Shown here one piece after another: positions 42,781 through 59,907 of a DNA stretch of 64,000 nucleotides; position 1 is the first letter of the stretch; the number at the start of each line of letters is the position of its first letter. Origin of the DNA: Synechococcus sp. CC9616 (lineage in GTDB: Bacteria; Cyanobacteriota; Cyanobacteriia; PCC-6307; Cyanobiaceae); the NCBI RefSeq assembly GCF_000515235.1, contig NZ_KI911558.1, forward strand, positions 401,490 to 465,489, given 5' to 3'. The notes beneath the pieces are model-generated. The model was given only the letters and a program-made list of their open reading frames with translations, was not told the origin of the DNA and made no database searches. Position numbers and translations under genes: made by a program.

Positions 42781-43083
42781 GCTGCGATTTAATCATGCTT
42801 TCACCAGGCCGAGGGCCAAGGGGGCAGCACTGTGTGAGGAACCATCGGACCAAAGACAGGGCACACGGGTCAGAATTCCGGTTGAGTTATTGCTAGACAA
42901 TGGGTTGCACCATCGGATCCTGCTTTGTCTAGGCGCTCAGAGATTTCCTCTGCACCCATCACTAGTTCGCGTATTGATATAGATGCGGTCGTATAAAAAA
43001 TATTTTGTATTTATAACTAGATTGTCATCCATCAATAGCTCCTCCACCGCAGGCTTCCCAAGGTCTTGAACCCCGCCACAAAG
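42781..43083. other. Intergenic region
   Basis: No supported gene. Ends at the short frame 43084-43173, which has a paralogue inside the mobile element. Confidence 0.4.
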
Positions 43084-43173
43084 TCAACGCTTGAAGGTGT
43101 CGGGGTTGTTAGCCCTTAGTGCTGAGACGAGTTCACTCAGCAGGAACAGAGCAAGAAGGGATTCTTCAGTCAA
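43084..43173 (-). CDS. 29-residue ORF paralogous to the start of 51732-51977
   Basis: TTG-started frame: LLALFLLSELVSALRAN then PDTFKR and stop. By eye 18 of 29 positions are identical to the first 29 residues of the minus-strand ORF at 51732-51977 (LIALCLLEQLVAALRANDPD). Such matching at protein level suggests a duplicated real gene, here shortened, or a decayed remnant. Confidence 0.4.
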   Translation of the reverse strand: MTEESLLALFLLSELVSALRANNPDTFKR

Positions 43174-43307
43174 GAATTATTGTCATTAGATCACCCCATC
43201 CGCAAGCGTGAAGCGAAAGTGGGTCTTTTGGTATCTTACCCAACAGATTTGAAACAACTCGTCGAGGAAGGGAATTCCTTCATGGGGGCTAGAATTTAAA
43301 CCCACTC

Positions 43308-43757
43308 TTGAATTCTGTGCCAAGAATCTTCTATCTTTTAAATGGATTATTTCTCATTTTAGGTTGTTTTGGAATCCAGCTAGGCCGCCACGTCCAAGCT
43401 GCGCCAAAAAGGGGCACTACAGTTGTAGAATGTGTATTTGTTGATGGTTTTTTCAAGGGCAATGGCTACATCTACGAAATAAATAAAAGCCAAACAAAAG
43501 TTCGGTTATTGAAAGCATTTGAAACATCAGAAAGTGGCATCAGAAGCAGCTTCGATGAAAACGCGGATATGTTCTTAGTGTCCAGCGAAAATGAGGTGCT
43601 CACTTTTGTCGATACACGCCTTGAGGATGAGCAAGGTATCGTCTATGAGGAGACACTTGATTTAAATGCGTTGACATCAACTACGCTGACCATCGAAATG
43701 GTTGAGGGTTTAGGTCAAATCGTTGAAACACATTCATCGAAATGTAGAAATATATAA
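43308..43757 (+). CDS. Secreted small protein
   Basis: TTG at 43308 or GTG at 43317 starts a signal peptide (IFYLLNGLFLILGCFGI) ending near VQAAP. The mature ~115 residues are acidic and beta-rich with Cys in VECVFV and the final SKCRNI. Function unknown. Confidence 0.6.
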   Translation: MNSVPRIFYLLNGLFLILGCFGIQLGRHVQAAPKRGTTVVECVFVDGFFKGNGYIYEINKSQTKVRLLKAFETSESGIRSSFDENADMFLVSSENEVLTFVDTRLEDEQGIVYEETLDLNALTSTTLTIEMVEGLGQIVETHSSKCRNI

Positions 43758-43912
43758 TCGTGAATAGTCGAATTGGTTGGTTTCAGGGGCGTGATCATAA
43801 ATGCTGTTTATAGCCGATTAGGCGGCTCATTTGGCAATAGCTAGACACTTAGTCGAAGGTCATCGTTTATACGTGACTGTCTGAAGCGTTCCCCTATTTG
43901 CTTAGGTAAAGA

Positions 43913-43936
43913 GAAACCCCGCCATTGCTGACGGGG
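43913..43936 (-). terminator. Repeated terminator hairpin, copy 1
   Basis: On the minus strand CCCCGTC-AGCAAT-GGCGGGG then TTTC. Lies 38 bp past the stop of the TPR gene 43974-44753. The flanking bases (AATGCCTTGAAAGAGTTGAA) resemble those at copy 7. Confidence 0.75.
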
Positions 43937-43973
43937 AATGCCTTGAAAGAGTTGAATTAGACAGCTACAAATA

Positions 43974-44753
43974 TCAGCATTGATTTCTTACCCATTCAAT
44001 CGGCCTGGTAACCCCTAGATCTACCGCTTTTTTCCTGTCCCTACAGGCACCCTTCAGGTCACCCACTATTTCTAAAACAACTCCACGGTTGGTGTAGGCT
44101 TTAGCATAATTGGAATTGATTTGAATTGCCTTTGTGTAATCAGATATAGCTCCCTGATAATCCTTTAATTTACTCTTGGTTATACCACGATTGAAGTAGT
44201 AGTCCGGATCTTTAGGGTCGATTTCTATTGCCTTTGTGAAATCAACAATAGCTTCTTGGTAATCCTTTAATTTAACCTTGACCATACCACGATTACTGTA
44301 GGCAAAAGCATAATCAGGGTTGTACTGGATTGCTTTTGTGTAATCAGCAATAGCGCCTCTAAAATCGCCTAATTCATCTCTCGCAAGTCCACGGCTGTAA
44401 TAGGCGGGTGCATATCGAGGATAAATCTCGATTGCCTTAGTATAATCAGCTATTGCCCCATGATAATCTCCTAATTCATACTTAGCAAGACCACGATTGT
44501 TGTAGGGTACTGCATATCGAGGATCAATCTCGATTGCCTTAGTCCAATCCGCAATAGCTCCTTTTAGATTTCCACTTTTTGCTTTATCAAGCCCTGAATC
44601 AAACCAGTCTTGAGCACTCTTTGCATAGGCTGTCTGGGTTGACAGCAACCCTGCGCCAATTCCAACGGCAGGAGTCAGCCCAAATAGCAACGGGCGTCCT
44701 ATTGGCAAGAACAGGGCTAAGGCAGCAGCAAAGCCAGTTGTGACACGAGGCAT
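43974..44753 (-). CDS. Secreted or anchored TPR protein, six repeats
   Basis: An N-terminal hydrophobic leader (FAAALALFLPIGRPLLFGL and on to TAYA) is followed by about six TPR units, each of the form GDYxGAIADYTKAIEI-P-YA-Y-NRG. The C-terminus is ACRDRKKAVDLGVTRPIEWV. TPRs mediate protein contacts. ATG 44753 (MPRVTT) is used because the paralogue at 52091-52570 starts there. Bracketed by terminator repeats on both sides. Confidence 0.85.
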   Translation of the reverse strand: MPRVTTGFAAALALFLPIGRPLLFGLTPAVGIGAGLLSTQTAYAKSAQDWFDSGLDKAKSGNLKGAIADWTKAIEIDPRYAVPYNNRGLAKYELGDYHGAIADYTKAIEIYPRYAPAYYSRGLARDELGDFRGAIADYTKAIQYNPDYAFAYSNRGMVKVKLKDYQEAIVDFTKAIEIDPKDPDYYFNRGITKSKLKDYQGAISDYTKAIQINSNYAKAYTNRGVVLEIVGDLKGACRDRKKAVDLGVTRPIEWVRNQC

Positions 44754-44825
44754 CCTTTGCAGCATGTGACTACTCCATCTCTAGCCTTCATCAATAAGCA
44801 CTGTCTGCATCTGATCTGCAAATAG

Positions 44826-44843
44826 AAAAACCCCGCCATTGCT
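44826..44843 (-). terminator. Repeated terminator hairpin, copy 2 (degenerate)
   Basis: Matches the left arm and loop of the repeat (AAAAACCCCGCCATTGCT), but the right arm has changed to CCAGGAGGG, so the stem is weaker. The sequence just before it (CTGTCTGCATCTGATCTGCAA) matches that before copy 8. Confidence 0.6.
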
Positions 44844-44886
44844 CCAGGAGGGCGTCTATCCGTGTTAAAATGAATTTTTTAATAAA

Positions 44887-45342
44887 ATGTCTAGAAAGCT
44901 TAATAAGAATTTGCGCAAAAATAACAAAATTATAGAAAAAGATTTATTCGCCAGTAATGCAGACATTGAGTTTGAGAACTCTGATTTTGAAAATACAAGC
45001 TATTTCAATTCTTACGATGATATTACTGGGGCAATTACGATAGGTTCTTACGAATACGACAAGAAGGGCCGTGTAGATAGCTATAGCTTACGTATAACCC
45101 TTGATGATTCATCGCTCTTTCATGGATTTGAGATGAAAAATAGCAAAAGCTTTAAAAAACATGCGTCACATTTGAGCTATATATTAAATTATGACACCAC
45201 CTATAGTTCACTCCTAAGCGATGCAGTTGCCAATGGGGACTGCCAGACTCTGACTAATTACTTAGATCAACTCAACGGTATCGGTAAAGGTGTTACTTCA
45301 ACAGCTTCAAGCATCAATGGAGGGATAATGTGCTTTGCCTAA
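44887..45342 (+). CDS. Unknown protein, family A copy 2
   Basis: Paralogue of 40341-40799: the same Lys/Asn-rich N-terminus (KLNKNLRKNNKIIEKDL), DDITGAITIGSYEYDKKG, KSFKKHASHL, DTTY, GDCQTLTNYLDQL and a final GGIMC. 151 aa, no signal peptide. Sits alone between terminator repeats 2 and 3. Function unknown. Confidence 0.65.
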   Translation: MSRKLNKNLRKNNKIIEKDLFASNADIEFENSDFENTSYFNSYDDITGAITIGSYEYDKKGRVDSYSLRITLDDSSLFHGFEMKNSKSFKKHASHLSYILNYDTTYSSLLSDAVANGDCQTLTNYLDQLNGIGKGVTSTASSINGGIMCFA

Positions 45343-45418
45343 TCATTGCCAGCATTGAATCTCGGGCGTTTGTCGGATGAAGGCATTGATTTGAACTCGC
45401 TATTCCATTCTGGCAAGT

Positions 45419-45442
45419 CAAAAACCCCGCCTTGCGACTGGG
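45419..45442 (-). terminator. Repeated terminator hairpin, copy 3
   Basis: AAAAACCCCGCCTTGCGACTGGG on the plus strand, a shortened form of the repeat. Followed by GCTAAGTGTGAATCAAGCCA, which also follows copy 5. It lies just past the end of the broken pentapeptide gene. Confidence 0.65.
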
Positions 45443-45467
45443 CTAAGTGTGAATCAAGCCAGCGGAA

Positions 45468-46240
45468 TCAGAAGATTTCACTGCAGGGTTGTGTACCAAC
45501 GCCCATGGAACCATCAGGGCAGGTTGTTTCGAACCAAAACGCCTGATCTGCACGAATTGCTTGATCCAAACCGCGCGCATCACTCAGGTCCGCAAACCTC
45601 AGGTTCGCATCACGCAGGTCCGCAAAACTCAGGTCCGCAGCACTCAGGTTCGCAAATCTCAGGTCCGCATCACGCAGGTTCGCACCAAACAGGACCGCAC
45701 CAAGCAGGTTCGCAAACATGAGGTTCGCATTACTCAGGTCCGCAAAACTCAGGTCCGCACCACTCAGGAACCTTCTACGCCCATTCGGCATCCAATCAGG
45801 ACGCCAACGGGTGCGTTCTGTTGAATACACAGTACTTTCGGTCTGCGTTTCACTTTCAATTCCCGTAATCTTGTCAGCTTGCTTTTTATTCTTAGGCGTA
45901 ATATCATAAACTAGCTTGTTTGACTTCTTCTTATATTTGACATCGGTAATTGTGAACTTGCACTTCTTCTTTGACCCATCAACAAGGGTAAACGTCTTAT
46001 AGGCGCTTACCTCAGCGTTTCGCCGTAATAGTTGTCATAGTTCTTGGCATACTTCTTTGCACTGTAATAACCCTCCTCGGTATCAGGAATTTCCTCTTCA
46101 TCAACCTGCTCTTCTTCCCAGTGAACCCTCTCAACGTCTTCCATCACCAGCTTGTAGCTGCCGTCCTTGCGTTGCTTGATCGTGCTGCTCTCGCTTTGCA
46201 CGTCAAACAGAACAGGTGCGTCAGAAGGCGGCTTTGCCAA
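45468..46240 (-). pseudogene. Frameshifted pentapeptide-repeat protein gene
   Basis: The N-terminal frame (46240 to 46007) starts MAKPPSDAPVLF and has IKQRKDGSYKLVMEDVERV, matching the intact paralogue at 50525-51316. The C-terminal frame (to 45468) continues with [21 protein letters not shown] and then about twelve pentapeptide units (A(D/N)LxF type), ending TTCPDGSMG. The two frames meet within ~20 bp near 46010-46025. One indel separates them from a full ~250-residue protein. Pseudogene or assembly error. Confidence 0.72.
45570..45775. repeat. 15-bp tandem repeat coding for pentapeptides
   Basis: About a dozen imperfect copies of the 15-bp word CTCAGGTCCGCATCA. On the minus strand it codes for A-D/N-L-x-F/x pentapeptides of the gene above. 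Plus-strand frames here are shadows of the repeat. Confidence 0.8.
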
Positions 46241-46322
46241 AGCTGAGTTGGAGCACTAACTCAGTTGATAGCAATAACAGTCCTTTGCTGACGTTCCTAA
46301 GAGCACACTCTACTTCTGTAAT

Positions 46323-46347
46323 AAAAAACCCCGCCATTGCTGACGGG
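46323..46347 (-). terminator. Repeated terminator hairpin, copy 4
   Basis: AAAAAACCCCGCCATTGCTG then ACGGG on the plus strand, upstream of the broken pentapeptide gene start. Followed by AAGGTGTGTGTGA, as at copy 6, which lies upstream of the paralogous pentapeptide gene. Confidence 0.75.
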
Positions 46348-46666
46348 AAGGTGTGTGTGACGTTTGGTCGTGAGATAGATCAGGCGCAGCCAAAAATTAT
46401 TGGCGTAGATGTCGGGAATTGTCGCCTTACGTATGTAACCCTTCCCACAGCGAAGAACCACATCAGTGCTAATTGCAACATGATCTCAGTACCTAAATGT
46501 CACCCGCTGTCATCTGTTTGTCAGTGGGCGCTTGGAACAGCTCCGTGGTGAGTGCTGATTGGTGGTGTGCCTTACCACACCCTCACCAGACAGTCGCATG
46601 CTGGCAACAAAAAACCGCCTCTTGGGGGGCGGAGAAGATTCCAGTTTGGGTCTGGCTTTTGACGCA

Positions 46667-46711
46667 TCGGGGAGACAGGATTCGAACCTGCGGCATCTTG
46701 CTCCCAAAGCA
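46667..46711. other. Left attachment site: partial tRNA-Pro copy
   Basis: 45 bases match 59907-59951 with one difference (C for T at 46683). They cover the tRNA 3' end, T arm, variable region and anticodon arm, and the match ends abruptly after CCCAAAGCA. The 5' half of the tRNA is missing, so this is not a functional gene. Confidence 0.85.
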
Positions 46712-46816
46712 GCATGGCTCTCTAGTGCTGGCCTAGGTTTCTCTAGTCAGTGACTCAGTTCTAGCAGTGTTTTTGCGTTATCAGATGTCAGGAGGTGTCA
46801 GCAGGTGCTTGACAGC

Positions 46817-46835
46817 TTTCGCACGCCTTTCGCAC
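46817..46835. promoter_or_regulatory. Candidate left integrase arm sites
   Basis: Two direct copies of TTTCGCAC at 46817-46824 and 46828-46835, 11 bp apart, between the partial tRNA and the integrase gene. The same octamer appears near the right end. Tyrosine integrases bind such arm sites in addition to the core. Confidence 0.5.
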
Positions 46836-46864
46836 AATGGGCATAGCAATATGCCTCTGCTGAA

Positions 46865-48040
46865 TTGCCACGCGTTAGCCAGACAGAACCCTGGATCAAG
46901 CCCTTCAGGAAGCAGATCGCAGAGACCTGCGGTGAGAGTTGGTACGTCCGCAACAACCGTGGTCGGATTCGACTGGAGGTTCGTGGTGCTGGGACCGTTT
47001 CACTTCCCTACGAATGGACAGCGCGTGGATCAGGACTTGCCTTGCCCCGCATCCTGCAGATCTTTAAGCGGTGGAACGGTGGTCAGGTCACCCTCGCTGT
47101 GGCCGCACAGAACTCCGATACCTCCAGCAGCCATCAGCAACTGAATTTCGGCCAGTTGATTGATAAATACCGAGCGTTTGTGCCTAACGCTGGCGACACC
47201 ACCTGGAAGACGTTTTATCTGCCGGTGCTGCGCAATTGCGCCAAAGCATTTGAGGGCCGACCACCGGTGGACGGTGAAGCCTTAGCGATGCAATGCCTTG
47301 CGCAATGGGAACAGGGTTCACGGATGCGGCAGACCAGCCGTCAGAAGCTTTATGGCTTCCTGAACTGGGCGGTGCAACGTGGATACCTCAAGCCCATTTA
47401 CAGCCCTCCTGCCTCGCTTCCTGAGGTGCTGAAAGCCAAGCGCATTGGCTATCCCCTCAGCGATGTTCAAATTCTGCAGTTGCTCGACAACCTGCCTGAG
47501 GGTGAGGTGCATGACCGCTGGCGGTTCGCCATTCAGTTGTGTGCCGTCTATGGACTGCGCCCCGAGGAATTGCGGCACCTGCGGATTAAGGACGGGGCAA
47601 GTGGAACAGAACTCTGGACCATTTATCAGAAGTCGATGGGCGGCACCAAGGGAGCCAAGACAGAGCCACGGCGACTCCACCCGCTGCTGCTGCGTGATGC
47701 CGATGGTTCCGCCATTGATTGGAAGCTCCAGGCACGGTTACAGGTGGGCGAGAAACTGCCGCCGTTGAACCGTGAGGGTGACGGGGGGCAGGCTTTGAAT
47801 CAATACCTGCGCAGACGCAAGGTTTGGATAGCGCTGCGGGATGAAGCCGACCATCAGGGTGAACAGCTCACGCCGTATTCCTTTCGTCATCGCTATGCCA
47901 AGCAATCTCATGCGGCACCACGGCTCGCCGTTGCAGAGATCGCTGAGGCAATGGGCCACACCATCGAGGTGCATTTAAAGAGCTACGCAAGGTTCAAGCC
48001 TGATGCGACAGCTGCTAACTACGCGGCTGTGAATGTCTGA
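46865..48040 (+). CDS. int: Tyrosine recombinase (integrase)
   Basis: The C-terminal catalytic domain shows YGLRPEELRHLRI (first Arg), TPYSFRHRYAKQSH (His-x-x-Arg region) and MGHTIEVHLKSYARF (GH and the nucleophilic Tyr). An N-terminal part suits arm and core DNA binding. 391 aa. No ATG is available before the conserved region; TTG at 46865 is used. Adjacent to the left att site, the expected place for the element's own integrase, directed inward. Confidence 0.93.
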   Translation: MPRVSQTEPWIKPFRKQIAETCGESWYVRNNRGRIRLEVRGAGTVSLPYEWTARGSGLALPRILQIFKRWNGGQVTLAVAAQNSDTSSSHQQLNFGQLIDKYRAFVPNAGDTTWKTFYLPVLRNCAKAFEGRPPVDGEALAMQCLAQWEQGSRMRQTSRQKLYGFLNWAVQRGYLKPIYSPPASLPEVLKAKRIGYPLSDVQILQLLDNLPEGEVHDRWRFAIQLCAVYGLRPEELRHLRIKDGASGTELWTIYQKSMGGTKGAKTEPRRLHPLLLRDADGSAIDWKLQARLQVGEKLPPLNREGDGGQALNQYLRRRKVWIALRDEADHQGEQLTPYSFRHRYAKQSHAAPRLAVAEIAEAMGHTIEVHLKSYARFKPDATAANYAAVNV

Positions 48041-48135
48041 TTACTTCTGCGAGTAAAGCCAGAGCTGATAAACGGCGTCTGATCCATAGCCCTCATCAAC
48101 CAGCTGCCTGCACGCCTGACGGGCAGCCCCCCTTT

Positions 48136-48912
48136 TTATTGGCCGAACAAGGACGGATGCAGCTTCCGATATGCAGCATGCCGACGGTTAGATCGGCTGA
48201 TGTCTTTTTTCTTGAAAGCAGTGACTGCCTCCTCTGTAACCAGCCCTAAGGCTTCAGCAATCCGCTTACGGTGCTGATTGAAAACAGGGGAGGAGCTGCT
48301 GACGAAGTACGGGGTCATGATCGAGTTCCAAATGTCACCCATCAGCCAGTTGTCCTTCAGGATCCAGATCGGCTTGGTATGGGCGCAGAACTCATAAAGC
48401 CGCTCGATAAATGCGTTGAATTCAGATAGGACGCCCTTGCTCTTCGTGTTGATGATTTCCGATGAGCCACCCCAGCCCCAGACCTTGATAGGGACTTCTT
48501 TGGGTTGAAATTTGAGGCGTAGCCAACTGATTGCCGCAGCTTCAAAAGCATCTGCCTGATCACCAGATACTGGGACCGAGGCAAGAACCTTTTTGTAAGC
48601 GACTGGATCGCGCTCCAGCGGGTTGGAGTTGAAGGTCAAGCCGACTTTGTGGACCCGGTGTCTCTCGACTTCAGCCTCCACCAGATACAGGTATGCGCGA
48701 CCGCGACGTGCCTTCGCCATGCGCCTTTTGTATCGCTGGTCATTAACAAAGCACGGGACCTGCAGGAAATCGATCTGAAGCCGTAATAACTCCACGGCCT
48801 CATCAGGCGTCCAGAACGTGAAATCGGGTGAGGCCTTCATTCGATCAGCTTGCTTTAGCTGGGTTGGTGGCACATCCCCCATCCGGGTGAATGTCCCCGT
48901 TGCGGGGGACAT
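48136..48912 (-). CDS. GIY-YIG/T5orf172-like protein
   Basis: GRAYLYLVEAEVERHRVHKVGLTFNSNPLERDP has the spacing of a GIY-YIG-type core (YLYLVE ... KVGLT), followed by an A-E-A-A helix. The catalytic Arg and Glu are not certain. 258 aa from ATG 48912, which overlaps the upstream stop by ATGA. Possibly a nuclease carried by the element. The 95 bp between it and the integrase hold a short coding-like tail (LVDEGYGSDAVYQLWLYSQK, minus strand) with no start. Confidence 0.6.
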   Translation of the reverse strand: MSPATGTFTRMGDVPPTQLKQADRMKASPDFTFWTPDEAVELLRLQIDFLQVPCFVNDQRYKRRMAKARRGRAYLYLVEAEVERHRVHKVGLTFNSNPLERDPVAYKKVLASVPVSGDQADAFEAAAISWLRLKFQPKEVPIKVWGWGGSSEIINTKSKGVLSEFNAFIERLYEFCAHTKPIWILKDNWLMGDIWNSIMTPYFVSSSSPVFNQHRKRIAEALGLVTEEAVTAFKKKDISRSNRRHAAYRKLHPSLFGQ

Positions 48913-49136
48913 TATTCCGCCTCGCAATAACCGCCAAAATCGCACCGGTATTCATTCCCGTCTTGGTCGCGGATGTAATTCGACCGGTAAGGGTGATCGT
49001 GATAATCGCCGTGGTTGTAGCTGCTGCCAGGACCGTAAAGTGATGGCCCTGTGCGCTGCAGGTAATCGTCATAGGCATTGGCAGGAACGCCAAAGCAACA
49101 AGTAACAACAGCGATGGAAGCGAAAAAAAGTTTCAT
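48912..49136 (-). CDS. Small secreted Tyr/Gly-rich protein
   Basis: Signal peptide MKLFFASIAVVTCCFGVPANA, then a Tyr/Gly/His-rich mature part (LYGPGSSYNHGDYHDHPYRS) ending with RCDFGGYC. Translationally coupled (ATGA) to the GIY-YIG-like gene. Function unknown. Confidence 0.65.
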   Translation of the reverse strand: MKLFFASIAVVTCCFGVPANAYDDYLQRTGPSLYGPGSSYNHGDYHDHPYRSNYIRDQDGNEYRCDFGGYCEAE

Positions 49137-49373
49137 GATTCAGAAAGGATTTCTCCAGTAGTGGTATTGCGTTGGTTTACAAGGAAGGCACGGACCAGCC
49201 GGACGAGAGCGATCCGGAGCGCAGCCACCATTCCGATGCGCTCGGTTACTGCGCACTGGGAGCGATGAAGCCGCTGATTCCAAAGAAACTGAAAACCAGG
49301 TCCAGTTCAACGATCACTATCTGGTGATGCAGAAGTCAGGCGGGTGGAAGCAGTGCCCAATACATATTGGGAG

Positions 49374-49829
49374 TCACGACTGAGTTTTTTTCTCCTGAGT
49401 GCTCACAATCAGGGCCGTAACCCCGACGATCTGCAGCTGCCAAAGCATCGGCCCGACGAACAGACCGACGATTGTCCAGGCCAACACGTTGCGCCCGAAC
49501 CATTCGAACGCCATTGGAGCGACGAACGCTCCCAGAGGGCCGCCGGAAACGAGGCCAACCCAGCCCTTGCCGTCCTGCTGCTTCTGGTACTCCTCAGCGC
49601 CGAGATTGCAAAGGCCGTTTGCCTTGCTCTGGAAGTCATTACTGGCACCCGTTACGGCCCGTGCTTGCGCTGCGACTTCTAGACACTGAAGCTCGAACCG
49701 TTCGCCGTAGCTCATGCGCTCTGAGCCACCCCAATAACTTTTGGCCTCGACCGATGCAGGGAAGAACGCAGCTGCACCCAGAAGACCGCCAACAGCAGAA
49801 CCGATAACAACACTTCCGAAATTTTTCAT
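49374..49829 (-). CDS. Membrane protein of the element
   Basis: A 151-residue product with a signal or first helix at residues ~8-28 and two C-terminal helices (around FGRNVLAWTIVGLFVGPML and LQIVGVTALIV). Between them is a soluble part with Cys (LQCLEVAA, GLCNLGA). Starts 3 bp after the upstream stop, so it is in an operon with 49833-50162. Confidence 0.62.
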   Translation of the reverse strand: MKNFGSVVIGSAVGGLLGAAAFFPASVEAKSYWGGSERMSYGERFELQCLEVAAQARAVTGASNDFQSKANGLCNLGAEEYQKQQDGKGWVGLVSGGPLGAFVAPMAFEWFGRNVLAWTIVGLFVGPMLWQLQIVGVTALIVSTQEKKTQS

Positions 49830-49832
49830 TGA

Positions 49833-50162
49833 TCAGACCTCCGCTTCTGTTGGTTTTTCGCTCAGCCAATACACGCCTTTGAACTTCTTTTCAGCCAGCC
49901 GCTGAAACGCTGACATTTCAATGTGGATGGTGGCTTTGAACTCAACGTTCAACTCACCATCAGCGGCAGTTCTGACTGTCGTGACCATCTCTCGTCCGTC
50001 GAGATCTTCCGGACTGATCGAAAAATGCCCTGGAGCGCATCTGGCCATGGGTGGTTTGCAACTGCATTCACCATTGCTGAAAGAAGTTGTGAGTACATCC
50101 CTCGATCGATTGATTGTTCTGCCCAATTTCAGGGGGTCGCATCCCCCATCCGAGGGATTCAT
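49833..50162 (-). CDS. Hypothetical protein of the element
   Basis: A 109-residue product. The N-terminal third has clustered Cys (GECSCKPPMARCAPG); the rest is alpha/beta (ELNVEFKATIHIEMSAFQRLAEKKF). Its ATG overlaps the stop of the upstream frame 50159-50419. Function unknown. Confidence 0.55.
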   Translation of the reverse strand: MNPSDGGCDPLKLGRTINRSRDVLTTSFSNGECSCKPPMARCAPGHFSISPEDLDGREMVTTVRTAADGELNVEFKATIHIEMSAFQRLAEKKFKGVYWLSEKPTEAEV

Positions 50163-50419
50163 GCCAATGCCTCCAGCTCCAGCTGCTGGGCCGTCTGACC
50201 CAGCCCCAGAACAGATGCTCTGTCATCAGAAATATGGCTCAGTTGAGGGATGCGCCCACCTTTGGGGTCCAAGGATGGTGGTAATGAGGTCAAAAATTGA
50301 AAAATGAATCTATTCACCAAAGGACTGACAACTGGTATCGCTGTCGGACTTGGGGCAGCTCTTGCAATCCCCGCCATACGACAGGCTTGAGACAACAATT
50401 CAATTTGTTTCGGAGTCAT
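50159..50419 (-). CDS. Possible 86-residue protein, coupled upstream ORF
   Basis: Starts MTPKQIELLSQACRMAGIAR and ends with an ATGA overlap to the next gene, which is the main evidence. It runs antisense to the short plus-strand frame 50304-50390; both are unlikely to be real together. Confidence 0.35.
   Translation of the reverse strand: MTPKQIELLSQACRMAGIARAAPSPTAIPVVSPLVNRFIFQFLTSLPPSLDPKGGRIPQLSHISDDRASVLGLGQTAQQLELEALA
50304..50390 (+). CDS. Possible 28-residue membrane peptide
   Basis: ATG 50304 to TGA: starts MNLFTKGLTTGIAVGLGAAL and ends AIPAIRQA. The Gly/Ala-rich helix after a Thr-Lys-Gly start resembles the beginning of DUF5132-type membrane proteins. Antisense to 50159-50419. Confidence 0.3.
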   Translation: MNLFTKGLTTGIAVGLGAALAIPAIRQA

Positions 50420-50487
50420 CTTTTGCGGGGATTCAGTGCCCCTAACGACCCTCTAATTTTACTTGCTACAAATCATCGACTTCTCAG

Positions 50488-50512
50488 TAAAAACCCCGCC
50501 ATTGCTGACAAG
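50488..50512 (-). terminator. Repeated terminator hairpin, copy 5
   Basis: TAAAAACCCCGCCATTGCTG with a partly decayed right arm (ACAAGG), then GCTAAGTGTGAATCAAGCCA as at copy 3. Sits just past the stop of the pentapeptide gene 50525-51316. Confidence 0.7.
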
Positions 50513-50524
50513 GCTAAGTGTGAA

Positions 50525-51316
50525 TCAAGCCAGGTTTAGTTGATCTGCTGTGCAGGGTGATTGCAGTAATAGTTGCTCGTCTGTACAAGGTTTAAGAAAG
50601 GCGTGCTTTGTTCCGTCTGGGCAAATTGAATCGATTTCCCAATCAACGGCATTAAGCTTTGCGTCCTTGAAGTTTGCGCCAGTTAGATTAACTTGATTTA
50701 GTTTGGCGCCATGTAAATTAGCACCTGTTAGGTTTGCACCAGTCAGATTCGTTTTAACCATTATTGAATCCCTCAAATTTGCCCCCACAAGTTTCGCGTC
50801 AGTAAAATTTCCATAAACAAGATTTGTGCCTTGGAACTGCATCCCACTTAAATCTTCACCACGACAGTCAGGAAAACAAGGGGGTCTTGGATATATTCTA
50901 TTTCTAAAATCAATGGACACTGAATCAATAAATAAGGAGATGTCACTCATTTCCATGTTTTTAAGACCTGTAATCTTGTCTTTACTTGAATCGCTAAGTG
51001 GTTTGACACCAAACACCATCTTCCCTGATTCCATTTTTGGCTTGAGCATCTCAAATGTGAACAACTCTCTCTGGTCTTCAACCTCAACCGTTGCTTGAGC
51101 ATTGGGTTCACTACTGGCGAATAACTTATCCCATTTGCGAAGCAGCTTCTGCGGCTTCCAGGTGCCCTCGACACGGTCAGGCCGGTCGGTGAACCAATCA
51201 ATCTCATCAACGCCCTTCAGCACCATCTGATAGCTGCCGTTCTTGCGTTGCTTGATGTGACCTGAGTCGGCCAGGGCACCGAACAGAAGGGATGAACCAG
51301 CAGGAGGTTTCGCCAC
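50525..51316 (-). CDS. Pentapeptide-repeat protein
   Basis: 263 aa. Residues 1-60 share MAKPP, IKQRK(D/N)GSY and following positions with the broken gene at 45468-46240. The middle has DKITGLKNM; residues ~150-215 are pentapeptide repeats (NLTGANLTGANLHGAKLNQV), which form a right-handed beta helix. The C-terminus is SICPDGTKHAFL and Cys-containing. No signal peptide. Bracketed by hairpin copies 5 and 6. Function unknown. Confidence 0.8.
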   Translation of the reverse strand: MAKPPAGSSLLFGALADSGHIKQRKNGSYQMVLKGVDEIDWFTDRPDRVEGTWKPQKLLRKWDKLFASSEPNAQATVEVEDQRELFTFEMLKPKMESGKMVFGVKPLSDSSKDKITGLKNMEMSDISLFIDSVSIDFRNRIYPRPPCFPDCRGEDLSGMQFQGTNLVYGNFTDAKLVGANLRDSIMVKTNLTGANLTGANLHGAKLNQVNLTGANFKDAKLNAVDWEIDSICPDGTKHAFLKPCTDEQLLLQSPCTADQLNLA

Positions 51317-51358
51317 GGGTGAGATTAAGTTGCCCTACGGATAGCAAGGAATTCACTG

Positions 51359-51383
51359 AAAAACCCCGCCATTGCTGACGGGG
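51359..51383 (-). terminator. Repeated terminator hairpin, copy 6
   Basis: AAAAACCCCGCCATTGCTG then ACGGGG, a perfect stem; followed by TGGTGTGTGTGAG as at copy 4. Upstream of the pentapeptide gene start. Confidence 0.78.
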
Positions 51384-51503
51384 TGGTGTGTGTGAGGCTT
51401 GTCGGGTAATAGATGTAACTTTGCCCTACCACCTTAGAGTAGATAGTCGAAAGCGAGAAATAGTTGAACTAAAGTCGGGAGCCTCCACGGTGTGACCAGA
51501 TAG

Positions 51504-51830
51504 ATGGTGTTTCTATTTTTTCTACCAGCCCTCGGAGTGGCTTTAGGCCTTTTCATTTTTGCTCTTATTTGGAGTATTAAGTCTCTCACTCGATCCTCTA
51601 AGGTTGGCGGCACTGCCGCAGTCATCACCCATGTATTACTAGGGAGCGCTATTTTGGTGATTTCTTTTGACATATATGGCGACTATTTCTACCACTGGAG
51701 TTGCAGCAAGGGTTTCATCGGTTACTGTTATTTAGAAGCCTCTATGATGTTTATCTTGATGGGACTTCTTCCTTGTGGATTCCCAATCACTGGTCACATC
51801 CTTAGGTCGGTATGGCGCAGTAAGCATTAG
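51504..51830 (+). CDS. Small polytopic membrane protein
   Basis: A 108-residue product with three or four hydrophobic segments (around LFFLPALGVALGLFIFALI, AAVITHVLLGSAILVISF and ASMMFILMGLLPCGFPI) and Cys between them (SCSKGFIGYCY). Unknown function; a cargo gene between hairpins 6 and 7. Confidence 0.62.
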   Translation: MVFLFFLPALGVALGLFIFALIWSIKSLTRSSKVGGTAAVITHVLLGSAILVISFDIYGDYFYHWSCSKGFIGYCYLEASMMFILMGLLPCGFPITGHILRSVWRSKH

Positions 51831-51977
51831 CGTGATATCAGAGGGACCAGCTACGCCGCCTCTTTCTTCAGGGGGGATCAAAAGAGCAATTCGCTTGAAG
51901 AGGTCAGGGTCGTTGGCTCGTAATGCTGCGACAAGTTGTTCAAGCAGGCAGAGGGCAATGAGTGTGTCGAAGGACAT
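51732..51977 (-). CDS. Small ORF with Leu-rich start, paralogue of 43084-43173
   Basis: MSFDTLIALCLLEQLVAALR then NDPDLFKRIALL: the start is shared with the short frame at 43084-43173. The C-terminal half overlaps the 3' end of the divergent membrane gene and may be read-through of a shorter real protein. Function unknown. Confidence 0.45.
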   Translation of the reverse strand: MSFDTLIALCLLEQLVAALRANDPDLFKRIALLIPPEERGGVAGPSDITLMLTAPYRPKDVTSDWESTRKKSHQDKHHRGF

Positions 51978-52024
51978 TGATCAGATGTGACTGCCTGAAG
52001 TGTTCCCCGCTCTGCTCAAGTAAT

Positions 52025-52052
52025 GAAAAAACCCCGCCATTGCTGACGGGGG
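52025..52052 (-). terminator. Repeated terminator hairpin, copy 7
   Basis: AAAAAACCCCGCCATTGCTG then ACGGGG, a perfect stem, followed by GGATGCTTTGGAAGCGTTGAA (compare copy 1). About 40 bp past the stop of the second TPR gene. Confidence 0.78.
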
Positions 52053-52090
52053 GATGCTTTGGAAGCGTTGAAATCAGGCGATGCCAGATG

Positions 52091-52570
52091 TCAGCAGTGC
52101 TTTCTTACCCATTCAATCGGTTTGGTATCCCCTAGATCTACCGCTTTTTTCCAGTCTCTACAGGCGTCTTTCAGATTACCTATTAGATCTAAAGTAATGC
52201 CGCGGTTTGTGTAAGGCTGATAAAGTTCGGGATTGAGTTCAATTGCTTTTGTGTAATCATCAATAGCTCCTTGATAATCCTGTAATTCATGCTTGACAAA
52301 GCCACGATTGTAGTAGGCATAGGTAAATCGAGGATAAATCTCGATTGCCTTAGTCCAATCAGCAATAGCCCCTTCTAAGTTTCCACTTTCTGCTTTATCA
52401 ATCCCTGAATTGTACAGATCTTTAGCATTCTTATTCTGTGCATAGGCTACCTGCGCCGTCAGCAACCCTGCGCCAATTCCAACGGCAGGTGTAAGCCCAA
52501 CCAGCAACGGGCGTCCTATTGGCATGAACAGGGCTAAGGCAGCAGCAAAGGCAGTTGTGACACGAGGCAT
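52091..52570 (-). CDS. Secreted or anchored TPR protein, three repeats
   Basis: Nearly the same leader (FAAALALFMPIGRPLLVGL) and C-terminus (ACRDWKKAVDLGDTKPIEWV) as 43974-44753, but only about three TPR units instead of six. 159 aa. The difference fits loss or gain of whole repeats. Bracketed by hairpin copies 7 and 8. Confidence 0.83.
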   Translation of the reverse strand: MPRVTTAFAAALALFMPIGRPLLVGLTPAVGIGAGLLTAQVAYAQNKNAKDLYNSGIDKAESGNLEGAIADWTKAIEIYPRFTYAYYNRGFVKHELQDYQGAIDDYTKAIELNPELYQPYTNRGITLDLIGNLKDACRDWKKAVDLGDTKPIEWVRKHC

Positions 52571-52642
52571 CCTGAGGGCTGCATGGCTAGTCCATCTCTA
52601 GCCTTTATTGACGATCCCTGTCTGTATCTGATCTGCAAACAG

Positions 52643-52666
52643 AAAACCCCGCCATTGCGACGGGGG
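52643..52666 (-). terminator. Repeated terminator hairpin, copy 8
   Basis: AAAACCCCGCCATTGCGACG then GGGG, one base pair shorter in the loop. Preceded by CTGTCTGTATCTGATCTGCAA as at copy 2. It separates the TPR cassette from the terminase gene. Confidence 0.72.
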
Positions 52667-52774
52667 CTAAATGCAAAATATTGCCAGGTATTAAAGGCTG
52701 ATTTATGGGCTGAATGTCCCAGATATACCCCTTAATTCTGACAGGTCATTTTTGCCGTCCCTTTATCTATCTCT

Positions 52775-54346
52775 TCAACGTATTGGCATTGGCTTGTACG
52801 TCCGTACGCCTCCTACATATCGTCTCCGCTTCTCTTCATTGATCCACATCAGCGGATGCGCTCCACTTCGCTGTGATTGCCGATAGCTGTGCTGGCCTTG
52901 ATTAGCAGCAGTCAATACATACCTGACAGCATCAGCAGAATGGTCGGGCGCTGCTTTCTCCATATCCTCTGGATTGCGATCATCACTAATGCAATAAGGC
53001 AATGTCGCCCACAAGCTTTCACAACGCTCTGAAATGAATAGACCAGGCTGTTCACTACCCGCTTGCCACAACAAACTCTTCATCAGTTGCCACCCCACAG
53101 CCCTTGAACTCTTAGGGCTGCCAGTGACCTGCCATCCGTACTTCTTAAATTCAGTGCTCAGCGTCACAGGATCGCTATGACCGCCAAAGCCAAGCTGCGC
53201 AGTAACTGCTGAATCCATAATTACCCTGCGGGGCGGAATCACAAAATCTGTGAACCCGTTCCGCATATAAAGCTTCTTCACTCGCTCCACAAACTGCGGT
53301 GCAGTAAGTGATCGATCTCCCCTATTCCATTCCTTTGATCCGTCTGGCTGAATCGAGCAGATGTATTCCTCATCAACGCAGACCCAACTACCCCTAGCGA
53401 TATGACGCTCTCCAAATACCATTGGCTCTTGGATCTGACACATCAACACGACGCAGGCAGGGCTGGCCGTGCCCCAGTCACCACCGATCCAGCACCAATG
53501 TGCCTTGGTCTTTTCAGTAAATGCTCCGCTCTTATCCGGATACCACGGGATCTGAAAATCACGGGGCAGCATGTTGCGATCAAGTGATAGGGCTGAACCA
53601 AAGAATCCAGCCGTTACTTGTCCCCATTCACCCAGCACCTCCGCCGCAATCTTGCTCTCATCCCCGAAGCAACTAGCCCGTAGCTCCTGCTCATACTGGT
53701 CAGGACTAAAGAGATAAGGATTGTCCCGCAGAGTTGATTTCACCCATACCGCAGGCTGTGCTCCAAAAAACTCACAATTAAAAATCCGGTTTGGCATCGC
53801 TTTTGTAACGATGTAATCCCGAATCCACCAGCTGCCAGGCCCTAAAGGGTTAGCCGTCGCAATGAACTTTGGCACCACAGTTGGGTCCGTCGTCCGCATT
53901 GATGACCTAGCCCGCAACACAACCTGCGGGTCGCCTTCCTGCCCCAGCTCATCCCAGAAGATATGGCTCAGATCCTCACCCTGGATCTTGTTAAACGCAT
54001 CATTGGCATCCATATGAATCAGCCTGATCGTCCCCCCATTACTCAGCTTCCATTGCCGCTTCGCCTTGAAATACTTTGACCCTGGCATCAACGTCGGCAC
54101 CTGCTGATACAACAGATCCTCAAGCTTCGATAATCCAGCTAGATCACGTCTGATCAGTACCGCATTAAACGCCTCACCACTGATCAGGGCAAAATATCCA
54201 ATCAGCCAGATCAGCATGATTGACTTGCCACCGCCCCGACCACCAGCAAGGATCAAAGTATTCAGCTGATCAACCGATTGCACCAGGCCTGCCACCCTCC
54301 GCTGCCAGGGCGACAGTTGAATCGTTCGCGGTGCAGTATCAGCCAA
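52775..54346 (-). CDS. terL: Phage-type terminase large subunit
   Basis: The DNA-packaging motor ATPase and nuclease. Walker A is AGGRGGGKS at residues 34-42 and Walker B is IFWDE at 129-133. ATANPLGPG is the coupling motif. The nuclease domain starts at WIGGDWGTASP and includes VIMDSA and HSADAVRYVL with acidic residues in the expected places. 523 aa, full length. No procapsid or portal gene follows, which suggests packaging into a helper phage capsid. Confidence 0.93.
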   Translation of the reverse strand: MADTAPRTIQLSPWQRRVAGLVQSVDQLNTLILAGGRGGGKSIMLIWLIGYFALISGEAFNAVLIRRDLAGLSKLEDLLYQQVPTLMPGSKYFKAKRQWKLSNGGTIRLIHMDANDAFNKIQGEDLSHIFWDELGQEGDPQVVLRARSSMRTTDPTVVPKFIATANPLGPGSWWIRDYIVTKAMPNRIFNCEFFGAQPAVWVKSTLRDNPYLFSPDQYEQELRASCFGDESKIAAEVLGEWGQVTAGFFGSALSLDRNMLPRDFQIPWYPDKSGAFTEKTKAHWCWIGGDWGTASPACVVLMCQIQEPMVFGERHIARGSWVCVDEEYICSIQPDGSKEWNRGDRSLTAPQFVERVKKLYMRNGFTDFVIPPRRVIMDSAVTAQLGFGGHSDPVTLSTEFKKYGWQVTGSPKSSRAVGWQLMKSLLWQAGSEQPGLFISERCESLWATLPYCISDDRNPEDMEKAAPDHSADAVRYVLTAANQGQHSYRQSQRSGAHPLMWINEEKRRRYVGGVRTYKPMPIR

Positions 54347-54477
54347 TTAATAACAACATGCTGCATATATTCTGGCAGATTGAAATAACCTGACTAGGAA
54401 CCCGCTGGCTGGCTGCTGAATTTTTGATATAGTCAATCTGACGGCATCGATCGTCATTCACAACGCCTTTGAGCCAC

Positions 54478-54840
54478 ATGATCTTCGCGACCTCTGCGTT
54501 GCAGCAAGCTATTGATGCTGCAGACCTTTCTGATGGACAGCGCCATTGGTTGCGCTCTACGCAGTTGTTGCAACGCGGCACTGCGTTTGATGGTGCCATC
54601 GCTGCTGGTCTGTCTCCTGACGATGCACCGGACAAAAGCAACCCGGTGAAAGCCTTATCTGGGCGATGGAATCTGAACCTTGGCAAAGCATGTCATCAGA
54701 TTGCAGATGAACTTGGCTGGACCAAACAGGACAAGCGGTTCTGGATTGATCTGATGGTGACGTTCGAGGACGAGGAGTACAAAATCGATGATCAAGTCAT
54801 CTGGGTGCTGCGCCCTCAGTGGGTCAACTTGCATATCTGA
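54478..54840 (+). CDS. Hypothetical protein between the terminase genes
   Basis: A 120-residue product from ATG 54478 (MIFATSALQQAIDAADL). Helical, with ALSGRWNLNLGKACHQIADELGWTKQDKRFW and a beta end VIWVLRPQWVNLHI. It is on the opposite strand from the terminase genes and other replication genes, so has its own promoter. Function unknown. Confidence 0.65.
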   Translation: MIFATSALQQAIDAADLSDGQRHWLRSTQLLQRGTAFDGAIAAGLSPDDAPDKSNPVKALSGRWNLNLGKACHQIADELGWTKQDKRFWIDLMVTFEDEEYKIDDQVIWVLRPQWVNLHI

Positions 54841-55102
54841 ATTGACTGCTGACTGACTGCAAGGGTGTCAGCAATCCGGACACCTTTGATGACCTTGCCT
54901 CCCCGGAACCCGGGTTCCCGCTAGTAGCGGGAACCATCACTGGCACATACCCCCGTGAGATAGGTGATTTGGACACGGTCCAGTATTGAACTGGACACAG
55001 AACACTGCTCAGTCTCATTGAATTAGACAGCTGAGACGGGACTATGACTAGGCCGACTGGCACACCGTGGCCTGCGTACCTGTGACAGCCACAGGGCAGC
55101 AA

Positions 55103-55630
55103 TCACACGTCCAGCGTCTGTTGATTCCACTGCTCAGGGCTCAACTTCCCGCTGGTGTCACCTTGCTGCAGGAAGTCACGAACAACATTGACTTGCACCG
55201 CCTGGACACCGGCATCAGGGCTGAGCTGGTTGTTGAGCTGACGGGCACGGCGATCGTGATGAGTCGATAGCGCTCGCAACAGCGCTGGATCAACGCCTTC
55301 TGTCTTGGTGACCTTCACCTGCTCATGCCCATTCGGCAGGCGGATCACCTCACGCACAACACGACCACTGCGACGTTGCTCTTGGATCTCCTCGCGCATC
55401 TCACGTTCGCTGAGATTCCAGCGTTCCTCGCTGAGTGCCATCCGCTCTTCCATCGACAGCTTGTTAATGGGATGAGCCTTGGCGACCGACTTAATCATCT
55501 GCGACACACGCGCCTGCGTGATCCCAAGCTCATTGGCAATATCCCATTGCGTCAACCCGGCAATATATAACTCCCAGGCACGATTTGCGGTTTCTTGACT
55601 CTTCTTTTGAACGTTGATTGATGCAGCCAC
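55103..55630 (-). CDS. Small-terminase-like HTH protein
   Basis: Residues ~12-45 are a helix-turn-helix (AWELYIAGLTQWDIANELGITQARVSQMIK), followed by a charged coiled-coil (LSEERWNLSEREMREEIQEQ) and a flexible tail. This is the layout of phage small terminases (DNA-recognition HTH plus oligomerisation helices). It lies upstream of terL on the same strand. It could instead be a transcription regulator. Confidence 0.65.
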   Translation of the reverse strand: MAASINVQKKSQETANRAWELYIAGLTQWDIANELGITQARVSQMIKSVAKAHPINKLSMEERMALSEERWNLSEREMREEIQEQRRSGRVVREVIRLPNGHEQVKVTKTEGVDPALLRALSTHHDRRARQLNNQLSPDAGVQAVQVNVVRDFLQQGDTSGKLSPEQWNQQTLDV

Positions 55631-55639
55631 GTTAATACT

Positions 55640-55934
55640 TACTCTGAACCCTTGAAAAATTATAAGACGTTATAAGTAATCGAAGCAAAATCCCCCCATA
55701 TCGCTGCGTATGGGTAGCTGCTCCATGGTCCATACCCCCCACCCCCCTTTGTGCGTATATGAGCTAATTACCCTCTTTTTAATCATCAATACTTTTAAGG
55801 GGGGTATCCCTTGGACATAGGACCAACCCTTTTCAGCACTGAGAAAACCGCCTTGGACCACCTATGGACCGGTCCAGGACCACGTTGATTAGGTCCACGA
55901 GCTTGGTCCATCGGATCTACGCTTTGGTCCACCT
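55640..55934. other. Candidate replication origin with GGTCCA iterons
   Basis: Seven exact GGTCCA/TGGACC copies in this ~300-bp non-coding gap: 55727, then six in 55854-55931 (start points 55854, 55865, 55871, 55892, 55905, 55926), with near-copies around 55812-55825 and 55877. Next to them is an AT-rich part with TTATAAG-ACG-TTATAAG near 55660. Iterons plus an AT-rich segment beside a VapE-type helicase gene fit an origin; this is an inference. Confidence 0.55.
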
Positions 55935-57203
55935 TCAGAGGCGCTTCCATATGCGCGGGCGAGCACCTCCGTGTTGTCCCGTTCTTGGTCTTTTCAGCCC
56001 CCATCCAGCGCGTGTCATGGCGTCTTTGATGAGCATCTGATTCTTCTGCGTGGTCATGCCCGTGTCGCGCACAGCTTCCAGCAGTTCATTGGGATTAATT
56101 ATTTCTGCCCCTGCGTGTTCTTGGAGGTATCTGGCGACCGGACCCTCCAGGATGTTGTCGGCGGTGTAATCACGATTCAGGTCATCGTTTTCTACCTCGT
56201 CGGCATCGCCCAGGAACGTCTCAAAGCCGTTGAAATAATCAGCCGTTGCCTGCGCCCAGATCGCATCACGCAGAGCAGCAAGGGCCTCGGTATCGATCTT
56301 GGATGGAACGTCGCAGGGAATGATCCACCAACGGCGCTCGCCTGTGTCGTCGTAGAGGAAGTCACCACGGTTGCAAGAGCCGACAAAGATTGAAGGGCGC
56401 GGGCAAGGTGCTGCCTTAGTGGCATATGGCGGGCGGAAGTGGTCGCACTCAGTCGAGAGGAAATTCTTGAGGTGTCCGGCGTGAGTGAGTGAGGTGATGC
56501 CATCTAGCTCTCCTAGTTCCAACCCCCAGTTGGCGTGCAGCGTGAGCAAGGCGTCTTTATCGCCAATCTTTCCACGGAAGATGGCGAAGAATGGGCCGAA
56601 CAGGACACGCCAGAACGATGTTTTCTTAATGCCCTGATTGCCCTTCAGGACCAGACAGGTGTCGTGCTGACAACCGGGCTCGTAAGCGCGCTTGACGGCA
56701 GCCACAAGGGTTTTATGGAGCATGCGGTCATAGATGGTCTGCGGCCCTTCGTTATCAGCGGGGCGAAGGAACGTTGATGCCAGACGTGTGATGTCGACGC
56801 GGTCGCCGTAACGGATGGTGTCTAGGTAATTCCTGACGGGATGGAAGGCGTCTTCCTGCGCCGCTGCCGCTAGGGCATCTCTGGCATCGCGTTTGTTGAC
56901 GTCATATCCCCGCTGTTGGATTGGGATGTAGATGCACTCTTGTTCGTGTGAAGAGAGGGTGATGCCATTGATCTCCACGTCTTGTGACATGAGGTTCCAG
57001 CGAATTAACCCGTCATGGATCGGGTCTTGCATGACGGTGGTGAACATCGTTGTGAGATCACCAGCGCGGATTGCAGTGCGCTTGCCCTTTTCGTTGATGC
57101 CAGAGGGGAGAGTGCTAGCGAGCAGATGAACAGGTTTATTGGGGGTATTGAGCTGATGCCCGTTCGGGGAGAAGGCTGAGGCAATTTCTGTTGGCCAATC
57201 CAT
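55935..57203 (-). CDS. VapE-type helicase/primase-associated ATPase
   Basis: GNQGIKKTS is a P-loop; LELGELD is the Walker B; VGSCNRGDFLYDDTGERRWW is the signature of virulence-associated E proteins, which replicate phage satellites. About 422 aa from ATG 57203, whose ATGA overlaps the stop of the upstream zinc-finger gene. The N-terminal part shows no clear primase motif; that activity is probably in the upstream gene. Confidence 0.88.
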   Translation of the reverse strand: MDWPTEIASAFSPNGHQLNTPNKPVHLLASTLPSGINEKGKRTAIRAGDLTTMFTTVMQDPIHDGLIRWNLMSQDVEINGITLSSHEQECIYIPIQQRGYDVNKRDARDALAAAAQEDAFHPVRNYLDTIRYGDRVDITRLASTFLRPADNEGPQTIYDRMLHKTLVAAVKRAYEPGCQHDTCLVLKGNQGIKKTSFWRVLFGPFFAIFRGKIGDKDALLTLHANWGLELGELDGITSLTHAGHLKNFLSTECDHFRPPYATKAAPCPRPSIFVGSCNRGDFLYDDTGERRWWIIPCDVPSKIDTEALAALRDAIWAQATADYFNGFETFLGDADEVENDDLNRDYTADNILEGPVARYLQEHAGAEIINPNELLEAVRDTGMTTQKNQMLIKDAMTRAGWGLKRPRTGQHGGARPRIWKRL

Positions 57204-58050: not shown

Positions 58051-58093
58051 GTGAAAGCTTGTTTTCCTGAGGCGGTGTGGTGACCGCCTTTTT

Positions 58094-58306: not shown

Positions 58307-58457
58307 AAGAGAATTGAATAAATAAAGACTAGAGGACAAATGAGTGCCGTCTAGGTGCCAGAAATCCACTGCCTATGCCTCCTGATAGCTGATAACAACT
58401 GGTGACATCTAGTGACAAAGATTTAACTATTTTTTGGGTGATTTTACCTACCCGTTA

Positions 58458-59344: not shown

Positions 59345-59376
59345 TAGGAGGAAGTCGGAGGTTTACTCCGCGTCCC

Positions 59377-59876: not shown

Positions 59877-59907
59877 AACCGATTTGGGAAATCGCTCAGA
59901 TTGCAGT

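Follow-up and report, generated by a model that had tools for sequence, protein, structure and literature searches.

How do small genes in a bacterial chromosome come to stand one after another, each set off from the next by a copy of the same short hairpin? The question is raised by a 64,000-nucleotide stretch of the genome of Synechococcus sp. CC9616 (contig NZ_KI911558.1, positions 401,490 to 465,489; hereafter the window, with positions counted from its first base). The original prediction, made from these letters alone, held that a gene and its boundary hairpin are duplicated together, vaguely in the manner of integron cassettes, and that homologous recombination between hairpins, or copying through them, could explain the array. 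The genome comparisons described here suggest that units of small accessory genes, which stand in the variable regions of marine Synechococcus genomes, have been joined and exchanged at the hairpins; the agent was probably not an integron but recombination of the ordinary kind acting on repeats.

Results

The Hairpin and Its Distribution

A search of the 64-kb window for the pattern AAAAACCCCGCCATTGCTG, allowing up to three mismatches, returns seven matches, all on the plus strand, where shuffled sequence gives 0.03 on average and never more than one. An eighth copy, at 45.42 kb, has decayed to AAAAACCCCGCCTTGCGACTGGG and was seen by direct reading of the sequence; with the seven near-exact ones it bears out the eight copies in a single orientation that had been predicted. 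The second arm, ACGGGG, is intact in the copies at 43.91, 51.36, and 52.03 kb, changed to ACGGGA at 46.32 kb and to ACAAGG at 50.49 kb, and lost at 44.83 kb (CCAGGAGGG); the copy at 52.64 kb is short of one loop base. Two copies in the window (44.83 and 45.42 kb) are decayed. Read on the minus strand the copies are CCCCGUCAGCAAUGGCGGGGUUUU, and intact ones present a GCAA tetraloop with a U-tract after the stem. The window hairpin is thus a G+C-rich stem-loop followed by a U-tract, as expected of an intrinsic terminator: a terminator scan picks up five of the eight copies as terminator-like, and six of the eight fold significantly better than their shuffles (z -2.6 to -5.0). The fold at 45.42 kb is marginal, and the copy at 44.83 kb has no significant fold relative to shuffles (z +0.2). 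On these predictions most window copies look like intrinsic terminators when the minus strand is read, and they would presumably end transcription in vivo.

The window's genome (2.65 Mb) carries 18 copies at up to three mismatches, and a reversed control pattern has no match in it. Fourteen of the 18 have a neighboring copy less than 10 kb away, where random placement gives a mean of 2.2. Among 34 genomes of the genus, the hairpin is found at up to two mismatches in 23 and in none of the remaining 11; the largest number, 28 copies in the genome designated G005, is likewise clustered (23 with a neighbor less than 10 kb away; random mean, 4.9). In a family-wide draw of 151 genomes, five of seven from the same genus have a match, as do two of 144 from other genera, with one copy each. 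Exact copies stand in the records of Synechococcus WH7803 and of the single cells AG-670-F04, AG-679-D13, and AG-679-B05, among others; WH7803 has U1, the repeated element described below, as well.

Hairpin-bearing stretches recur near stable-RNA genes: near tmRNA in L044, L062, and L070, near tRNA-Arg (TCT) in L047, L057, and L065, and near tRNA-Pro (TGG) in the window, L059, and L066. Their recurrence near these genes in different genomes suggests shared insertion hot spots. Freshwater Actinobacteria (L130, L174, L183, L184) contain the same 20-mer within a family of similar terminators whose flanks are partly shared (GAGCAACAGC.AAAAA before the 20-mer), possibly a similar repeat of independent origin.

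Homology Breakpoints and Orientation

Homology was followed through 139 hairpin copies (up to four mismatches) in 67 stretches, the window and 66 that were fetched, in which the reversed control pattern again has no match. In 683 pairs the shared sequence covers at least 40 bp upstream and runs into the hairpin, and in 621 of them it ends inside the hairpin or no more than 10 bp past it; among pairs sharing at least 40 bp downstream, 288 of 350 end in the hairpin or within 10 bp on its other side. Whole-stretch alignments that reach hairpins stop there in 448 of 520 cases (86%) on one side and in 421 of 497 (85%) on the other. The corresponding figures are 68 of 164 (41%) and 119 of 213 (56%) at 203 other terminator-like sites, and 274 of 1155 and 247 of 1043 (24% and 24%) at 655 random points within 3 kb. 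These counts support the view that hairpins are preferred homology breakpoints, and in the pair table of the 67 stretches the upstream and downstream families at hairpins combine freely. Neighboring hairpins 150 to 3500 bp apart have the same orientation in 58 cases and opposite orientations in one, whereas other terminator-like neighbors divide 39 to 48; a count of 59:1 comes from a tally that took in the decayed window copy. Because the hairpin is common to all copies, their mismatch profile does not separate a fixed from a free crossover position.

Exchange of Units

Units that match from hairpin to hairpin lie in different contexts. Positions 52028-52666 of the window (unit c58, with the 159-aa tetratricopeptide-repeat [TPR] gene) match L003:5541-6198, in another context of the same genome, at 92.8%, and positions 44827-45440 (unit c54) match L058:7504-8126, from genome G022, at 91.3%. 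The unit at L002:17842 has a counterpart in L086 (genome G018) at 91.7%, and two unit copies within L001 agree at 90.9%, in both cases again hairpin to hairpin. Two recent blocks shared with G005 end exactly at a hairpin of the window (Table 1).

Contents also appear to have been exchanged in place. At the tRNA-Arg site, as compared between two species in L057 (G022) and L065 (genome G030), the flanks are 90-93% identical, and U1 (a repeated element described below), both hairpins, and the downstream sequence are kept, but the inserts of roughly 300 bp between the same two hairpins are unrelated. This is the one clear case of cassette exchange at a conserved place; most units change place. A list of apparent empty sites consisted mostly of paralogue matching and was not used as proof.

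The exchanged unit, then, is one or more genes together with a boundary hairpin, as had been proposed, and shuffling between genomes with breakpoints at hairpins is seen in the unit homologues, the stop rates, and the tRNA-Arg inserts. The outcome that would have told against the proposal, a common terminator that follows many core genes with no shuffling between copies, is not what the genome and its relatives contain.

Makeup of the Units

In the window the TPR unit and the pentapeptide unit each occur as a pair, which bears out the paralogous cassettes noted earlier (Table 1). Of the other units, one has a 151-aa gene lying on the opposite strand and one has small open reading frames (ORFs). 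The 151-aa gene of unit c54 has no match in Pfam. The pentapeptide gene of unit c55 is split relative to the 263-aa copy at 50525-51316 and looks like a broken copy. Units outside the window would, by our reading, encode TPR, histidine-rich, subtilase-like, RTX-like, and small secreted-looking proteins; apart from the Pfam-matched ones, these names were read from the sequence. Elsewhere in the window, a glutamine-II riboswitch aptamer lies at 34869-34927 (40.3 bits).

In well-defined units, many of the longest ORFs start about 96-110 bp past the preceding hairpin. Leader hits of the groups designated D1 to D4 are often preceded by the hairpin (D1, 10 of 12; D2, 15 of 23; D3, 23 of 49, some of the 49 being partial matches; D4, 4 of 6). 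Each unit may have its own promoter; a promoter scan gave no signal over shuffles (6 found; shuffle mean, 10.6). At L053:13816 and L055:3892 a D3-family leader is joined to a coding fragment, presumably an internal piece of miaB, and in L053 the joint falls at a short match (ATGGCGGGG) to the 3′ arm of the hairpin.

Table 1. Hairpins, genes, and other features of the window
Feature	Position	Strand	Support or remark
Recent block, 900 bp	43037..43936	-	96.0% to L048:9915-10814 (G005); ends exactly at hairpin
Hairpin copy 1, intact, on 3′ side of TPR gene	43913..43936	-	-14.7 kcal/mol, z -4.2
TPR-repeat protein gene, 263 aa, unit c53	43974..44765	-	PF00515, E 6.4e-48
Hairpin copy 2, with replaced 5′ arm, separating the divergent TPR and 151-aa genes	44827..44850	-	no significant fold
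151-aa gene, unit c54, strand opposite to hairpins	44887..45342	+	
Hairpin copy 3, decayed, on 3′ side of first pentapeptide unit	45421..45440	-	z -1.7
First pentapeptide unit, c55, two ORFs (46007-46240, 45468-45830)	45468..46240	-	
Hairpin copy 4, on 5′ side of first pentapeptide unit	46325..46348	-	short U1-like tail before hairpin on minus strand
tRNA-Pro repeat, 45 bp	46667-46711		97.8%
Integrase beside tRNA-Pro repeat	46865-48040		phrog_1, E 1.4e-21
Hairpin copy 5, on 3′ side of second pentapeptide gene	50490..50513	-	
Pentapeptide-repeat protein gene, 263 aa, unit c56	50525..51316	-	PF00805, E 6e-18
Recent block, 563-564 bp	51360..51922	-	98.2% to L046:7858-8421 (G005); ends exactly at hairpin
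Hairpin copy 6, intact	51360..51383	-	-16.3 kcal/mol, z -5.0; U1 3′ tail (about 51384-51415) before hairpin on minus strand
Hairpin copy 7, intact, on 3′ side of second TPR gene	52028..52051	-	
TPR-repeat protein gene, 159 aa, unit c58	52091..52570	-	
Hairpin copy 8, lacking one loop base, on 5′ side of second TPR gene	52643..52666	-	
Intact tRNA-Pro	59906-59980		

The U1 RNA

The outer bases that paralogous cassettes were said to share (GGTGTGTGTGA) belong to another repeat, U1, whose 3′ tail they form; U1 lies before many of the hairpins. U1 is a multicopy repeat of about 106 nt found at the 3′ ends of island genes (for example, L090:8600-8720 and G000:C1:12741-12850). Of its full copies, 37 of 56 are followed by the hairpin, and U1 precedes other terminators as well. 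A hand-drawn structure of 25 pairs, applied to 27 of 42 sequences, has about 85.5-85.9% standard pairs and a covariation score of 0.328, against 0.158 when shuffled and at most 0.117 when slid, a result that is favored by the choice of rows and structure by eye. The 15 sequences that were dropped, most of which have a 5′ end that is truncated or degenerate, reach 66.0% pairing in the drawn structure, against at most 37.6% when slid; RNAalifold run on all 42 finds almost no structure. A covariance model of U1 has matches in 22 of the 34 genus genomes and, with stricter filters, in 16 of 151 family genomes (7 of 59 genera). Many units thus appear to end in a covarying, structured RNA, and we regard U1 as a candidate RNA family of its own.

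An Rfam scan of the window finds no family over its gathering score at U1. The sole sub-threshold Rfam match of note in U1 stretches (at three loci, then in one U1) is sRNA-Xcc1, part of which one U1 helix resembles; the match covers only positions 17-41 of 87 and scores 23.8 bits, where the gathering score is 53, and it was rejected as an identification. It is kept as a lead because sRNA-Xcc1 has been described as carried in Xanthomonas integron cassettes (PMC12444791, PMC2996969). Yfr1, suspected from a CUCACAC stretch, is not among the matches in the Rfam scans. Spread of the hairpin and U1 by phage was also rejected: the 20-mer occurs in viral contigs, but none of those listed has the U1 flank, a 25-base U1 pattern had no match, and a 206-bp stretch of the window has no phage match.

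Recombinases and the tRNA-Pro Element

An integron integrase (TIGR02249) scores over the cut-off in one of the 34 genus genomes, G033, which has two hairpins at up to two mismatches; it is absent from G000. The G033 gene (G033:C36:6792-7724) is full length (E 7e-133). The check for attC-like features that the original prediction had called for was made by inspecting the 20-nt hairpin consensus, with no attC search model run; neither of the attC cores GTTRRRY and RYYYAAC is in it. On these two grounds an integron was ruled out. The Y1 transposase (PF01797) is present in four of 34 genus genomes, G000, G002, G022, and G030 not among them, and a system of Y1 or REP-associated tyrosine transposases was ruled out because so few genomes, and not the window's own, have the enzyme. 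Counts of PF00589 tyrosine recombinases in nine genomes do not track hairpin counts (G000, 4; G002, 12; G005, 5; G022, 2). No integrase family was found to track the hairpin among TIGR02249 and Y1 in the 34 genomes and PF00589 in the nine.

A 13.3-kb element at 46667-59980 encodes an integrase, a large terminase, a helix-turn-helix protein, and a helicase/primase. Its integrase stands beside a repeat of the 3′ part of the tRNA (46667-46711), which marks it as a tRNA-integrated element, and the terminase and helicase/primase genes lie on the stretch from there to the intact tRNA-Pro (59906-59980); the element is possibly a phage satellite. Half of the array lies inside it and half outside, and since the array straddles it, the element is a possible carrier but not what defines the array.

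Discussion

The explanation we favor, with moderate confidence, is that hairpin units are gained and swapped by ectopic recombination between dispersed repeats, of which the hairpin is the commonest. A single 24-nt intrinsic terminator (CCCCGUCA-GCAA-UGGCGGGG-UUUU) would have been copied through the genomic islands of the marine Synechococcus genus and would now serve as the shared seam between single-gene units, each laid out as a leader of about 100 bp, the gene or genes, a 3′ untranslated region (often with U1 RNA), and the hairpin. Units would be gained, lost, duplicated, and swapped via recombination between hairpin copies; other island repeats, namely U1, small-gene paralogues, and similar terminators, would recombine as well. 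If a hairpin-closed circle or segment were inserted at a hairpin already in place, a head-to-tail orientation would result, and mobile elements of the islands, such as the window's tRNA-Pro element, probably help carry units between cells. We suspect that RecA-type or short-homology recombination is the agent and that such circles occur. That repeats in general recombine is suggested by the two recent blocks shared with G005, each of which ends at a hairpin on one side and inside a paralogue of one small gene on the other, by the replaceability of the terminators, and by the lack of a recombinase that matches.

Several observations weigh against this explanation. Neither a circle nor a recombination event has been observed, and the pathway is therefore one that we infer. 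Repeats of 24 bp are near or below the usual length for efficient RecA exchange. The insert that distinguishes L072 and L076 begins 23 bp past a hairpin and has no closing one. Only 23 of 49 sampled D3-leader hits, partial matches included, follow this hairpin. The pair counts are not independent, the families being large; a conserved hairpin draws alignments to its own end, which inflates its stops relative to the controls; and other terminators stop homology about half the time, so the effect is partly general. That the same leader follows other terminators and that U1 joins them speaks against a strict rule but for recombination between repeats in general, the boundary terminator being replaceable. 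Homologous recombination between hairpins nonetheless fits best of the options first put forward, with other repeats probably taking part. The wider interpretation holds in part: the gene-hairpin unit, its breakpoints, and its shuffling stand, and the resemblance to integrons does not extend beyond layout.

A possible but rather unlikely alternative is that the hairpin is just the lineage's favored terminator, in islands shuffled by many routes where selection keeps the junctions between transcription units; breakpoints would then fall at terminators although the hairpin itself drives nothing. Other terminators, too, are enriched as breakpoints, and the hairpins that leaders follow are of several kinds, GCAA-type loops among them. 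In L068 and L080 the hairpin occupies an orthologous position in two species, one having lost most of U1, and is apparently an inherited terminator. The exact 20-mer is also present, singly and usually T-tailed, in unrelated bacteria (93 of 155 examined matches have a T- or A-rich neighbor, nearly all T), which we take as convergence on a good terminator; there it is far too rare to account for dozens of copies per genome. Yet this hairpin stops homology far oftener than other terminators in the same stretches, its co-orientation (58:1) contrasts with theirs (39:48), and the 28 copies of G005, 23 of them clustered, are hard to obtain by convergence. Moreover, the gene of unit c54 is opposite in strand to both flanking hairpins, so that neither can be its terminator.

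We give little credence to a dedicated system in which a putative recombinase recognizes the hairpin, possibly in the form of folded single-stranded DNA, and moves units between hairpins, with a function resembling that of cassette exchange in integrons. Units of a single gene, their head-to-tail orientation, homology that runs exactly from hairpin to hairpin, and the exchange of inserts at one site would all suit it, as would conservation of the whole 20-mer, its G-U pair included, among copies that had been chosen by similarity. Against it stand the rarity of the integron integrase and of Y1, the latter lacking in the window's genome, the PF00589 counts that do not follow the hairpin, the service of other terminators as boundaries, and recent blocks with non-hairpin ends. 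It is similarly improbable that the hairpin itself is a recombination site, as folded single-stranded DNA or RNA, acted on by a putative recombinase or by a replication or transcription process; if true, this would be an integrase-independent Synechococcus cassette system whose cargo is a gene with its own leader, terminator, and often a U1 RNA. That the hairpin doubles as a DNA uptake signal, with transformed fragments bounded by or centered on it, is barely credible: such a role has been proposed for terminator-located uptake sequences in Neisseria, and the hairpin's place at terminators would agree with it, as would the many exact copies that some genomes have, but uptake signals usually number hundreds to thousands, whereas the hairpin has at most 28 copies per genome among the 34, clustered rather than spread, and none in 11.

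The likeness to known systems is partial in each case. With integrons and clusters of attC sites lacking integron integrases (CALIN) the array shares head-to-tail, mostly one-gene units, a palindromic boundary in fixed orientation, and swapped contents. It differs in that 33 of the 34 genomes have no integron integrase over the cut-off, that the boundary is a 20-nt terminator lacking attC core motifs and replaceable by other terminators, and that units begin with a roughly 100-bp leader; the integron likeness originally suggested thus survives as general layout only. Minimal mobile elements of Neisseria are interchangeable gene cassettes at fixed chromosomal places, swapped via flanking homology. 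Exchange of cassettes through flanking homology may be common to both, as at the tRNA-Arg site, but here that homology is a dispersed 24-nt terminator, so hairpin units are not tied to one place. Repetitive extragenic palindromes (REP), bacterial interspersed mosaic elements (BIME), and enterobacterial repetitive intergenic consensus (ERIC)-type elements are multicopy, short palindromic repeats in 3′ intergenic positions, as is the hairpin, and U1 is ERIC-like in its size and inverted-repeat ends; the window's genome, however, has no Y1 transposase, and the hairpin brackets gene units in one orientation. Like tycheposons, the window has a tRNA-integrated element with integrase, terminase, and helicase; unlike them, the hairpin array is partly inside and partly outside the tRNA-Pro element.

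Genomic islands near tRNA genes have been described as repositories of exchanged genes in marine Synechococcus (PMC2441476, PMC7522525). The organisms are the same, but the passages of these papers drawn on here mention no shared boundary hairpin, and the word "terminator" occurs 0 times in each. The portions of the open-access literature on cassettes, terminators, islands, and picocyanobacteria that we drew on likewise contain no description of the hairpin or of U1. Islands are where marine Synechococcus gains genes, and the joints between island genes are not well described. A lineage-specific terminator acting as the preferred joint would explain why genes that move singly keep their regulatory ends, and by counting hairpins one may be able to follow the turnover of cassettes in strains and metagenomes.

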